Assembly (NCBI GenBank): GCA_031262495.1
Contig: JAISHV010000057.1
Location: forward strand, 20,715 to 84,714
Source: Ruminococcus sp.
GTDB taxonomy: Bacteria; Bacillota; Clostridia; Oscillospirales; Ruminococcaceae
DNA length: 64,000 nucleotides
Reading direction: 5' to 3'
Positions 743-60,096 of the stretch are shown here, in pieces (the stretch's first letter is position 1; each line of letters opens with the position of its first letter). A model generated the notes under the pieces. That model was not told the origin of the DNA and ran no database searches. It saw only the letters and a list, made by a program, of their open reading frames with translations. A program made the position numbers and the translations under genes.

Positions 743-876
743 GTAGGGGCGGATGTCCACATCCGCCCGCACACGGTAGGATTTTGTAGGGGCGGTCTTT
801 GACCGCCCGGGCGAACAGAGTTCGCCCCTACGACCGAACGCTTGGTAAACGGGCGACCGAGGGCGGTCGCCCCTAC
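743..876. repeat. Cluster of four GTAGGGGCG-type hairpin repeats with different stems
   Basis: GTAGGGGCGGATGTCCACATCCGCCCGCAC (743-772), GTAGGGGCGGTCTTTGACCGCCC (786-), GGGCGAACAGAGTTCGCCCCTAC (to 831), GGGCGACCGAGGGCGGTCGCCCCTAC (to 876). Confidence 0.85.
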
Positions 877-4774: not shown

Positions 4775-6016
4775 TCATTTATACGGATAATTATATCCTG
4801 CTACTGAAAATGATGATGTGCCGACAGGGATTACGATAAAGTCGCCGCCGTCAATGGGCTGAGTGATATTGTTCTCCGGAACGGAGATATCCTGAACGGT
4901 TCGGTAAACGATATTTCCGTCTTCAATAAGATAATCTGTTATACGTGCGGATTCTATTTCGGGGTTTTTTGTTGCGGTAGATTTGAGTGTATAGAGCTGT
5001 CCGTTTATATCGCGGTATTTTTGGGGCGAAACGGCAAACATTTTATCGGTGAGTTCTACTGAAAAATAGTTCCCGACAAAGACGCGCATTTCTGTTAAAT
5101 TTGAAAAACGCGGGTCCGAGACTTTAAAATAGCGGTAAACTTCATCGTCAACTGTTGATGTAATCGTGATATAATCCGCTGTTTCGTCAATGGGCAATGT
5201 CTTATCCGCAAAATATGAGTAGATTTCGTTAGCTGTTTCATATGCCGCCCAGCCGAAATACAGCGGATTATCGACTGTTGTTTTTTCGGGTGCGAGTGTC
5301 ATAGTCAGAGTGTTAGGGTCAAATGTATAACATTCGAGCGTCGTTACAGCGCGCCCGCCGTGGTAATCAATATGAGCGGGCACTAAGAATTTGAAATTCT
5401 CTGTAGGTATAAGCGTTATTTCTTCTGCATAATCCATCGGCTCAAGCCCGAATGTTGAGTATCTGTAAATCGTCAGTTCGCGAAGCTGTCCGTCAGAGAC
5501 AGCATAAAATAATGCGGCTTTTTTATCGTCAGTATCAGAAAAAATAACTTCAATAATATCAGGCGAACTTCTGTCATTTGTCGGAGATTTAAGCAGTTTT
5601 ATACTTGTTCGGTCTGCGGTATTAAGCGTAAACCCTTCCGGTGCCGCGAAACCTATTGTCAAGGCACTGAAATCTTTATTTTCGACAGTGAACCAAACAT
5701 TCGCGCCCTCCGGACCGCGAGAGGCTGTGATAATATAATTTTCGTCCAAACTGCTGTATTCAAAGGTAAATCCGTTATCGGCAATGTTAACGTTAAATGG
5801 GCGATAACCGTTTTTGAGAGCTTCTCCCGTGTCTATTTTGAGAGCTTCTCCCTTTGCCGCCGTAACATCACCGTAAGGTACGTTAGGCATTGCAGTATCG
5901 GGCGGGTCTGATGAGCATGAAGTGAAAATAACACAGAAAACACAAACAGCCGCAAAAATTACCGCTGAAAATTTATTCTTTTTCAATTTCATCACCGCCT
6001 TTATACTATTCTCCAT
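4775..6016 (-). CDS. Putative lipoprotein of unknown function
   Basis: Signal/lipobox VFCVIFTSCSSDPPD; long ORF with coherent composition. Confidence 0.75.
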   Translation of the reverse strand: MENSIKAVMKLKKNKFSAVIFAAVCVFCVIFTSCSSDPPDTAMPNVPYGDVTAAKGEALKIDTGEALKNGYRPFNVNIADNGFTFEYSSLDENYIITASRGPEGANVWFTVENKDFSALTIGFAAPEGFTLNTADRTSIKLLKSPTNDRSSPDIIEVIFSDTDDKKAALFYAVSDGQLRELTIYRYSTFGLEPMDYAEEITLIPTENFKFLVPAHIDYHGGRAVTTLECYTFDPNTLTMTLAPEKTTVDNPLYFGWAAYETANEIYSYFADKTLPIDETADYITITSTVDDEVYRYFKVSDPRFSNLTEMRVFVGNYFSVELTDKMFAVSPQKYRDINGQLYTLKSTATKNPEIESARITDYLIEDGNIVYRTVQDISVPENNITQPIDGGDFIVIPVGTSSFSVAGYNYPYK

Positions 6017-6182
6017 TTAAAAAACGCTTTGCGTTTTTTAAATGCTCGTCAGCTTTGCTGACGAGAGCCGCCCGTAGGGCGGCAGAGAAACCGTTCAATA
6101 CTAATATCTGCGGCTTTAGCCGCACCGCCGCTTTGCGGCGGCAATAAAAACATTTTCAATGTTTTTATTGGATATTAGTATT
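6015..6182. repeat. Chain of six perfect short-loop hairpins, the last three enclosed by a 12-bp outer inverted repeat AATACTAATATC/GATATTAGTATT
   Basis: Stems at 6015-6043, 6045-6065, 6067-6083, 6109-6124, 6125-6141, 6142-6170; outer repeat 6097-6108/6171-6182. Confidence 0.9.
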
Positions 6183-6235
6183 ATATGATAGATTAATTAT
6201 ACCACAAAACCGCGAAAAAAGCAATTACAAGAAAA

Positions 6236-6976
6236 TTACAATATAATCGGTGATATGTCATTTTGTTTTAGGAAAGCGTTCATTTGATTAAAATGACCGC
6301 AGCCGAAAAATCCTCTGTTCGCGGACAGCGGGCTCGGATGTTTTGCAGTAAGCAGCAGGTGCTGTGGATTAGTAATTAATATTGACTTTTGTGCGGCGTT
6401 TGCCCCCCAAAGCATAAAGACTGTCGGCGCGGTGCGGTTATTCAATAGTGTTATTACAGCATCGGTAAATTCTTCCCAGCCTTTGCCCTTGTGAGAATTA
6501 GGCTCGCCTGCTCTGACGGTTAAAACGCTGTTCATCAAGAGAATACCTTGTTCTGCCCATGGGATTAAGTCGGGAGATGTATTTATTTCTCCTGTTTCGG
6601 CGCGGACTTCTTTGAAGATGTTTTTCAGTGACGGCGGTGTTTTTTCAGCATTATTTACGGCGAAAGACAAGCCGTTCGCCTGATTTTCACCGTGATAGGG
6701 GTCTTGACCGATGATTACAGCCTTTACTGTGTGAAGCGGTGTTAATTCAAATGCGCGGAAAATCTGTGATTTTGGGGGGTAAATTTTTTGCGTGTTATAT
6801 TCATTTTGAAGAAATTCATCTAAATTTTGTAATTTACTAAAATCACCGGAAAATGCCTTTTTATAATCTTCGGGTAAATTTTCAAAAATGCCCGGAAAAC
6901 TTTTCAGTTCCTCATTTTTACACGAAAAACCAATAGAAATTTCATCCGGCAAATTCCCGCAAATCTCGTAAGTCAC
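6236..6976 (-). CDS. ung: Uracil-DNA glycosylase
   Basis: VKAVIIGQDPYHGENQANGLSFAV, HPSPLSANRGFFGCGHFNQ motifs. Confidence 0.95.
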   Translation of the reverse strand: MTYEICGNLPDEISIGFSCKNEELKSFPGIFENLPEDYKKAFSGDFSKLQNLDEFLQNEYNTQKIYPPKSQIFRAFELTPLHTVKAVIIGQDPYHGENQANGLSFAVNNAEKTPPSLKNIFKEVRAETGEINTSPDLIPWAEQGILLMNSVLTVRAGEPNSHKGKGWEEFTDAVITLLNNRTAPTVFMLWGANAAQKSILITNPQHLLLTAKHPSPLSANRGFFGCGHFNQMNAFLKQNDISPIIL

Positions 6977-18919: not shown

Positions 18920-19060
18920 GTAGGGGCGGGCGCCCTCGCCCGCCCGCACTTCCTAAAATACTCTATTTTAGAAATAAAACAAAATTTCCATGATTTTTTG
19001 TTTATTAACTACAGGGATGTGATAACTGGTATGCGGGCGACCGAGGGCGGTCGCCCCTAC
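18920..19060. repeat. 141-bp composite element with inverted GTAGGGGCG hairpins (copy 1)
   Basis: Begins GTAGGGGCGGGCGCCCTCGCCCGCCCGCAC, ends GCGGGCGACCGAGGGCGGTCGCCCCTAC; near-identical to 19371-19511. Confidence 0.92.
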
Positions 19061-19370: not shown

Positions 19371-19511
19371 GTAGGGGCGGGCGCCCTCGCCCGCCCGCAC
19401 TTTCTAAAATACTCTATTTTAGAAATAAAACAAAATCTCCATGATTTTTTGTTTATTAACTACAGGGATGTGATAACTGGTATGCGGGCGACCGAGGGCG
19501 GTCGCCCCTAC
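19371..19511. repeat. 141-bp composite element (copy 2), two differences from copy 1 by eye
   Basis: Same orientation and length as 18920-19060. Confidence 0.92.
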
Positions 19512-40769: not shown

Positions 40770-42203
40770 ATGCCTTATAACTCCTATGAATCCCCCTTTT
40801 GCACACGTTATGCAAGTCCTGAAATGCAGTTTATTTTCTCGGCGGACAAAAAATTCTCTACATGGCGTAAACTCTGGACGGCTTTAGCCCGCGCCGAAAT
40901 GGAACTCGGTTTGCCCGTTACACAAAGTCAGGTTGATGAACTCGCGGCAAATATCTATAATATTGATTATGATATAGCATCAGAGCGTGAAAAAATTGTC
41001 CGCCATGATGTTATGGCACACGTCTACGCTTACGGCGAAGCCGCTCCGAATTCTAAGGGTATTATTCATCTCGGCGCAACTTCTTGTTATGTCGGCGACA
41101 ATACGGACATAATTATTATGAAAGAGGGGCTTGAACTTTTAAGACAAAAGCTTATTGCGGTAATTTCAAATCTGAGCGCGTTCGCACTCGAATACGCCGA
41201 TATGCCGTGTCTTGCTTACACTCATCTCCAACCTGCTCAGCTTACGACTGTCGGGAAACGCGCTTCGCTTTGGATAAACGAGTTTCTTTCGGACTATGAA
41301 GAAATACTGCACCGCATAGACAGTTTGGCACTTTTAGGTTCAAAAGGGACTACAGGCACACAGGCAAGCTTTATGGAACTCTTTGACGGCGACGGTAAAA
41401 AGGTAACCGAACTTGAACAGAAGATAGCGGATGAGATGGGATTTTCAAAGGTTATACCTGTTTAGGGGCAGACTTATTCGCGTAAAGTTGACTATAATGT
41501 TGTGTCTGTTTTAAGCGGAATAGCTCAGTCGGCGATGAAATTTGCCAATGATTTAAGAATACTTCAAAATTTCAAAGAGATGGAAGAGCCTTTTGAGAGC
41601 GGTCAAATCGGTTCATCGGCGATGCCGTATAAGCGAAATCCTATGCGGAGCGAGCGTATTTGCGCTTTAGCGCGGTATATTATGACAGATACGCTGAATC
41701 CGGCGTTTACGGCGGGTACGCAGTGGTTTGAGCGGACGCTTGATGACTCGGCGAATAAGCGTATAGCTGTTGCGGAAGCTTTTTTGGGCACTGACGCGGT
41801 GCTGGGTATTATGATTAATGTGACAGACGGACTGAAAGTCTATCCGAAGGTAATTCACCGCCGTGTGATGGCGGAGCTTCCCTTTATGGCTTCTGAAAAT
41901 ATAATGATGGATGCCGTAAAACGCGGCGGAAATCGTCAGGAACTCCACGAAAAAATCAGGACATACGCGATGGAAGCCGGAAAAAGAGTAAAAGAGGAGG
42001 GGCTTGACAACGATTTGATAGAGCGGATTGCCGCCGACCCCGAATTCAATTTAGGCAGCAGTGATATAGAAAAAATCTTAGTCCCCGAAAAGTACACAGG
42101 ACGTTCAGGCGATCAAGTAAGAGATTTTATAAAAGATTTCATAACCCCGATACTCGTGAAAAACAAAGATTTTATTAATATTAAATCGGAACTGAAAGTA
42201 TAA
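40770..42203 (+). pseudogene. purB: Adenylosuccinate lyase interrupted by a single in-frame TAG at 41463-41465 (477 codons in one frame otherwise)
   Basis: N-half MPYNSYESPFCTRYASPEMQFIFSADKKFSTWRKLW...; C-half GQTYSRKVDYNVVSVLSGIAQ...GSSAMPYKRNPMRSERICALAR. Both halves in the same frame (41502-40770 = 244 codons). Functional status unknown. Confidence 0.8.
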
Positions 42204-42358
42204 TACTAATATGCATTTAAAGAATTGATTGAATTTTTTTCATAAACGGGCGACCGAGGGCGGTCGCCCCTACAGACCAAAAAAATTATATACAATTTGT
42301 AGGGGCGGGCACCCCCGCCCGCCCGCACATCATTTCATTTTTTATTGCATATTAGTAT
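42203..42358. mobile_element. MITE-like element: 13-bp terminal inverted repeats ATACTAATATGCA/TGCATATTAGTAT enclosing two GTAGGGG hairpins
   Basis: TIRs 42203-42215 and 42346-42358, hairpins 42248-42273 and 42299-42328; homologous in inverted orientation to 59941-60057. Confidence 0.75.
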
Positions 42359-42387
42359 GATTTCTGTGTTGACATCTGTGTTGTTGT

Positions 42388-44480: not shown

Positions 44481-44509
44481 GTAGGGGCGACCGCCCTCGG
44501 TCGCCCGCT
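44481..44509. repeat. Single GTAGGGGCGACCGCCCTCGGTCGCCCGCT hairpin after a three-unit CAGANNN heptad
   Basis: cagagga cagaaca cagaatat directly precedes gtaggggcgaccgccctcggtcgcccgct. Confidence 0.85.
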
Positions 44510-59083: not shown

Positions 59084-59941
59084 TTGTCAGCAATAGAAAT
59101 CTCTCAGACAAGCCCCTTATTTGGTAATATATTCATGATTTTAGCTTTTACACTGACTTTAATTGCCGGGTTATCCACAGGGCTTGGCGGGATAATCTCT
59201 GTTTTATCCAAAAAACAGAATACTAAATTTTTAGCTGTCGCCTTAGGTTTTTCGGCGGGCGTAATGATTTACGTGTCGATGGTGGAACTTTTCGCACAAG
59301 CGAATGAGTCTTTATCACTCCTTTACGGCATAAAACGCGGCGGGATATATACGGCTGTAGCGTTTTTCGCGGGCATTTTAATTATCGCCGTTATTGATAA
59401 ATTAATCCCCGAAAAAGAAAATCCCCATGAAATTAAACACAAAGGCGATGAACCGATGTTCCCAGCCGTACAACCCGGACAAACAAACACGGCTCAGCTT
59501 TTTCGCACAGGGGCAATGACCGCTTTAGCACTCACAATCCACAACTTCCCCGAAGGCTTAGCTACATTTGTTACCGCTCTCAAAGACCCCGAAATAGCTA
59601 TTCCTGTTGCGGCGGCTATTGCTCTTCACAATATCCCGGAGGGTATCGCTGTTGCAATGCCCCTGTATTTCGCCTCAGGCAGCCGCAAAAAGGCACTCGG
59701 CTTTTCGTTCGCCTCGGGATTGGCTGAACCGGTGGGTGCGGTTATAGGGTATCTTCTGCTTCGGAATTTCATCAGTGACGCACTGTTCGGTGTGGTATTC
59801 GCGGCAGTAGCGGGGATTATGGTATTTATCTCGATAGATGAACTCCTGCCCTCGGCTCACGAATATGGCGAACATCATTTGTCTATCTACGGCTTTATCG
59901 CCGGAATGGCGGTTATGGCGGTGAGTTTGATTATATTATAA
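59084..59941 (+). CDS. ZIP-family metal transporter (ZupT-like)
   Basis: HNFPEGLATFVTALKDPEIAIPVAAAIALHNIPEGIAVAMPLYFASGSRKKA. Confidence 0.94.
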   Translation: MSAIEISQTSPLFGNIFMILAFTLTLIAGLSTGLGGIISVLSKKQNTKFLAVALGFSAGVMIYVSMVELFAQANESLSLLYGIKRGGIYTAVAFFAGILIIAVIDKLIPEKENPHEIKHKGDEPMFPAVQPGQTNTAQLFRTGAMTALALTIHNFPEGLATFVTALKDPEIAIPVAAAIALHNIPEGIAVAMPLYFASGSRKKALGFSFASGLAEPVGAVIGYLLLRNFISDALFGVVFAAVAGIMVFISIDELLPSAHEYGEHHLSIYGFIAGMAVMAVSLIIL

Positions 59942-60057
59942 TACTAATTTGCATTAAAAAAATGAAATGATGTGCGGGCGGGCGAGGGCGCCCGCCCCTA
60001 CAAATTGTATTCAAAATAATTCTGGTCTGTAGGGGCGACCGCCCTCGGTCGCCCGCT
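59941..60057. mobile_element. Second copy of the MITE-like element (inverted relative to 42203-42358; distal TIR not recognisable)
   Basis: ATACTAATTTGCATTAAAAAAATGAAATGATGTGCGGG...CAAATTGTATTC...TGGTCTGTAGGGGCGACCGCCCTCGGTCGCCCG aligns to the reverse complement of 42248-42358. Confidence 0.75.
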
Positions 60058-60096
60058 TAATAAAAAAGCCGCGTTTTCGGTGAGAACGCGGCTTTC

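Follow-up and report, generated by a model that had tools for sequence, protein, structure and literature searches.

A probable non-autonomous transposable element of Ruminococcus sp. folds as two cloverleafs of three short-loop hairpins each

Bacterial non-autonomous transposable elements (MITEs) such as Nezha, RUP, Correia, ERIC and QMITE are described as small, non-coding repeats dispersed through intergenic DNA, with terminal inverted repeats (TIRs), a short target duplication, a stable fold and no transposase of their own; the usual element consists of one long stem, formed from both ends, and a core (PMC10969869). The BOX element of Streptococcus pneumoniae (boxA-boxB-boxC) has a modular, tight fold with paired terminal repeats, lies in transcribed intergenic DNA and has no known mobiliser, with variation arising from the number of tandem boxB units (PMC3049150). 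GTAG-REPs, which occur with RAYT, are likewise short perfect hairpins dispersed in intergenic DNA, each a single hairpin of 20-40 bp with a GTAG tag and served by a Y1 transposase (PMC3733652).

The block considered here lies in a 64-kb window of Ruminococcus sp. (the window being the whole stretch of DNA analysed, 64,000 nucleotides) and is very probably one insertion of a MITE that folds as two cloverleafs, keeps that fold and is moved in trans. Aligning copies from unrelated loci sets the borders: the unit proper is 6004-6180, a complete element of 177 bp on the + strand, plus a flanking TTA at 6001-6003 and at 6181-6183, which we read as the left and right copies of a 3-bp target duplication. 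The left terminal repeat, TACTATTCTC (6004-6013), is conserved wherever a copy retains its left end and is identical in a genome of a different family (G349); its last five bases, TTCTC (6009-6013), make up the 5' arm of closing stem 1, whose 3' arm, GAGAA (6085-6089), is paired in 100% of cells in 10 copies. This 5-bp stem encloses hairpin 1 (6014-6044; 14 bp, loop TTT), where copies differ by changes and 1-bp losses that are paired, hairpin 2 (6045-6065; 9 bp, loop TTT, or AAA in one copy) and hairpin 3 (6067-6083; 7 bp, loop GTA). A near-invariant linker, ACCGTTC (6090-6096), is followed by AATAC; its CCGTTC is invariant in 11 copies, and CCGTTYAATA is retained in G349. An internal copy of the terminal repeat (6097-6108) then provides the 5' side of closing stem 2, with an A-T to C-G compensatory change in three copies, and encloses hairpin 4 (6109-6124; 6 bp, loop TTTA), enlarged to a branched hairpin in the copy on contig C13, hairpin 5 (6125-6141; 7 bp, loop TTT, or AAA in four copies) and hairpin 6 (6142-6170; 13 bp, loop TTC), which carries an A-T to T-A compensatory change in three copies and overlaps the extended terminal repeat CCAATAAAAACATT. 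Closing stem 2 is completed on its 3' side by the right terminal repeat GATATTAGTA (6171-6180; reverse complement TACTAATATC). All parts within 6004-6180 lie on the + strand.

Each of the six perfect hairpins of the original prediction is present at its predicted position, with the stem of hairpin 1 measuring 14 bp instead of 13. The predicted 12-bp outer repeat also exists (6097-6108/6171-6182) but encloses only one half of the element, being the right terminal repeat paired with its own internal copy; a 12-bp closing stem around three hairpins accordingly describes the right half, whereas the closing stem of the left half, TTCTC/GAGAA, had been overlooked. With that stem recognised, the block resolves into two equal halves, in both of which a closing stem surrounds three hairpins, and the architecture is that of two side-by-side cloverleafs separated by the short linker. 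A scan of the 64-kb window for perfect stems of at least 6 bp with loops of 3-4 nt found three or more adjacent stems only in the two halves of the block; ten Markov-simulated windows held a maximum of two adjacent perfect stems each. All 73 of the 73 pairs predicted for the window copy are Watson-Crick, and the minimum free energy is -96 kcal/mol as RNA, where shuffles give -43.4 +/- 3.8 (z -13.8), and -69.8 as DNA, where they give -22.2 +/- 3.0 (z -15.9), values reached by none of 200 shuffles in either case, in keeping with the earlier description of a structured element. That description had also set the block apart from a terminator, correctly: no T run and no terminator-like site is found at 5900-6300, and no Rfam family matches.

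In the organism's own genome (G000; 2.08 Mb in 104 contigs, assembly 93% complete), the element is matched at 13 places, on many contigs, with 82-100% identity, amounting to about 13 copies or partial copies, several of them cut by contig ends. The aligned copies have sharp common borders, TTATACTATTCTC on the left and GATATTAGTATTA on the right, outside which the DNA is unrelated; the terminal inverted repeats are of the TACTA(T/A)T type, with the right end reading TAATACTAATATC in reverse complement, and TTA flanks all completely readable copies. The ends of BOX also read TATACT...AGTATA, a possible lead. The well-placed copies are all intergenic, many between same-direction genes, with unrelated neighbour genes and mixed orientation. 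The window copy sits between ung (uracil-DNA glycosylase, PF03167) and a putative lipoprotein gene, for which no Pfam match was found; 8 bp separate its left TTA from the likely start codon of the lipoprotein gene (5992), which lies downstream of it, and the listed ORF start of that gene, 6016, falls inside the element. The recurrence of the whole six-hairpin unit at some 13 unrelated loci, together with the occurrence of the same layout with different stem sequences in other genomes, overturns the earlier suggestion of tiny palindromes added independently, one by one.

Tested against known classes, the features found are those of a MITE, namely a 177-bp repeat dispersed in about 13 copies among unrelated neighbours, terminal inverted repeats (TACTATTCTC and TACTAATATC, with similarity extending over ~22 bp within the superfamily) and matched TWA flanks. 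Its ends, however, unlike those of usual MITEs, pair with internal partners, and the result is two cloverleafs that together carry six perfect short-loop hairpins. REPs are distinct, being single GTAG-tagged hairpins without TIRs, where the element has six hairpins, TIRs and TWA flanks, in a host in which no Y1 gene was found. The element appears to work most like strongly folded MITEs such as BOX, a likeness drawn from description, by which its fixed plan is also set apart from BOX with its variable boxB number. The two-cloverleaf, six-hairpin plan is not described for MITEs, GTAG-REPs or BOX in the excerpts available of the three sources (PMC10969869, PMC3733652, PMC3049150), and a literature search for the terminal motifs returned no mobile-element paper among the matches listed.

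The TWA-TACTAAT end is common to many short elements in the own genome and in genomes of the same order, including simpler MITEs of 105/106 bp (single-stem), 153-183 bp (GC-rich core) and 162/165 bp, with extended ends agreeing over ~22 bp (TWATACTAWTNYCCRATWAAAA). Of 299 genomes of the family, 14 carry the end pattern, as do 4 of 396 drawn from across the order; a reversed control pattern has almost no matches in the same genome sets. Among 52 machine-called pairs from related element families of the same order, the flanking triplet matches on both sides in 45 (27 TTA/TTA and 18 TAA/TAA), and several of the seven non-matching pairs are mispaired ends. Read in one element frame, copies in the congener G004 comprise four TAA/TAA and four TTA/TTA, and the GC-core family four TAA/TAA, three TTA/TTA and four unmatched; with both triplets present in a single frame, the match calls for more than the terminal sequence. 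Folding cannot account for it either, as TTA opposite TTA would not pair in a terminal stem, whereas a 3-bp duplication can. Counting against plain duplication, which does not predict orientation bias, the triplet, read in one element frame, is invariably TTA in the 106-bp family (17/17) and in the own-genome copies; the strongest evidence for duplication therefore comes from G004 and the GC-core family. Joined flanks used as a probe matched no empty site in congeners, and the TWA duplication thus rests on flank statistics; the matched triplets point to transposition with TWA target duplication.

Other arrangements of related ends and hairpins were observed in the same material. The TIR element at window 42201-42360, a type with about 50 ends in the genome, has TACTAAT ends around a core of two GTAG-tagged palindromes in inverted orientation, into which REP-like hairpins seem to have been captured by a MITE. 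The REP-like, GTAG-tagged palindrome itself, TGTAGGGGCGACCGCCCTCGGTCGCCC with its complement, is found at window 851-872, 19035-19056, 19486-19507, 42248-42269, 44485-44506 and 60033-60054; no Y1/RAYT gene to accompany it was found in G000. At window ~59939-60060, a further TAATACTAATTTGC end lies beside the same GC-rich core, with the right end apparently missing. In genome G227, a 106-bp MITE (L125:4037-4327) is interrupted by a nested insert of ~185 bp with inverted ends of its own, AACCTCTAAAAACC ... GGTTTTTAGAG.

The two-cloverleaf plan recurs beyond the own genome. In the congener G004 the plan is shared by two subfamilies, together at least 11 copies; G349, of a different family in the same order, has at least 10 matches, eight of them complete at 192-195 bp and flanked by TTA/TTA in 8/8, with the left end TTATACT(A/T/G)TT(C/T)TC, as in the window element, and different stems; in G143, of another genus, one of six matches retains the plan, though weakened and decayed. 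Stems of different lineages are not alignable by sequence; when 5' stem arms are compared site by site, those of the window copy and of G349 share 0-50% identity, with near-perfect pairing in both. On these sequence comparisons, the six-hairpin plan is kept across genera and two families of one order while the stems are replaced, and because pairing is retained as stem sequences change between lineages, it is the fold and not the letters that persists. One G349 copy (L234:1501-1694) has a right half like that of its siblings and largely different left-half stems, which suggests exchange of halves between subfamilies. In G143, at L193:1778-1962, a lysine riboswitch lies ~100 bp from a six-hairpin element. 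Phages and plasmids, searched for distant matches to the element and to its relatives, yielded none.

How such stems persist may be partly a matter of mutation. It is possible, if rather unlikely, that the hairpins grow and persist by mutation alone, through template switching across hairpin necks, which would make palindromes perfect and invert them, and without any selection for structure. Such an account is about the persistence of the stems and is compatible with MITE identity. The perfect stems lacking G-U pairs are what such a process would leave, as are the loops that appear inverted between copies (TTT in some copies and AAA in others on the same stem) and the loss of single base pairs of hairpin 1 on both arms at once. 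Among own-genome copies, seven pairs are changed on both sides, a number reached by 9 of 500 shuffles, and 15 cells are changed on both sides, reached by none of 500, with the compensation signal falling near zero when partners were slid as a control. Within G349, covariation is not above shuffles (the alignment of one divergent copy being imperfect), substitutions mostly break pairs, and imperfect stems are not restored, which counts against mutation alone. Mutation alone also leaves unexplained the recurring three hairpins per half, the two halves and the closing-stem pairing, although the process may well contribute to stem turnover. The overall pattern would fit maintenance at the DNA level, via selection on mobile copies or hairpin-templated correction, and the pair-breaking within G349 would fit copies drifting after insertion, which speaks against a host function for each copy.

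The last point bears on a regulatory or processing RNA kept by the host at many loci, as an attenuator, RNase III target or mRNA stabiliser, which we consider improbable. BOX, ERIC and similar MITEs do act on transcripts that they enter (PMC3049150, PMC10969869), and the extreme RNA fold, the intergenic position of copies, many of them between same-direction genes, and the 8 bp separating the window copy from a likely start codon would suit such a role. However, the copies have unrelated neighbours and point either way; the stems pair by Watson-Crick rules and neither strand shows a preference for G-U, most full copies having few G-U pairs and both strands folding about equally well; and the G-T and A-C departures on the element strand, in eight and five column types respectively, are similar in number and hence favour no transcribed strand. 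The pair-breaking substitutions of G349 count against this role as well. A known ncRNA, one of two identities that the original prediction had regarded as fatal to it, did not emerge: Rfam 15 gave no match above gathering score for the element, window or related loci, yielding only tRNA in the window and only the lysine riboswitch near one relative. Effects of the element on neighbouring genes, if any, may be a by-product.

Less probable still is single-strand movement driven by a hairpin-recognising HUH (Y1) transposase of the IS200/IS605 or RAYT type, in the manner of REPs and palindrome-associated elements. Enzymes of this type bind DNA hairpins of this sort, strong and with tiny loops, the hairpins are kept across lineages, and Y1 genes are present in G143, G147 and G025, and weakly in G227; yet PF01797 (Y1, IS200/RAYT-type) is found in neither G000 (93% complete) nor G004 (80% complete), both with many copies, and the element has terminal inverted repeats and a matched 3-bp flank, which are not known as features of Y1 elements. 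As for the enzyme supposed in the preferred reading, that of a MITE moved in trans, the IS1031 group of the IS5 family makes a 3-bp TNA duplication. The TWA duplication is of the same kind; the terminal sequence of the element, by contrast, is not recognised as IS1031-type, and profile searches found no PF13340 transposase in G000 or G004, no PF01609 in G004, and in G000 only contig-end fragments of PF01609, with no intact gene and no TACTAAT within reach. These searches covered three transposase families (PF01609, PF13340 and PF01797) in draft genomes, from which repeated insertion sequences are often lost, so that absence of the transposase is weak evidence. The genome stretches examined contained no autonomous element bounded by such ends; a 2-kb TIR pair on contig C39, taken up as a candidate, was rejected because its ends are two separate ones, of which the right is part of a short repeat, and what they enclose is an ordinary chemoreceptor-like gene.

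There is next to no likelihood of an attC-like recombination site or integron cassette end, the other identity named as fatal by the original prediction, for although the bulky folded strand is of suitable length, no GTTRRRY or RYYYAAC core site is found on either strand and copies are dispersed singly, not in cassette arrays.

For the MITE preferred here, dispersed copies, common ends and matched TWA flanks are observed, from which we infer movement of the DNA-transposon type: a putative transposase acting in trans would recognise TACTAWTNYCCRATWAAAA-type terminal repeats and duplicate a 3-bp TWA target. Folding and comparison establish the two cloverleaf halves, where each terminal repeat pairs with a nearby internal partner and encloses three short-loop hairpins. 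The fold most likely persists because only elements that form compact local DNA hairpins would stay mobile, or harmless enough to spread, possibly by way of a cruciform, of a single strand at replication or of hairpin-templated correction, while individual inserted copies would drift.

A more specific proposal, that mobility depends on the double-cloverleaf fold, read as folded DNA (or RNA) by the transposase or a partner, is put forward tentatively and is doubtful as it stands. If true, what the element passes on would be its shape, not its sequence. The usual marks of a MITE are its sequence and a single long terminal stem; here, the layout outlives stems that have been rewritten, which opens the reason for the strong folding of bacterial mobile repeats to testing, and sequence searches alone would miss relatives of such elements.
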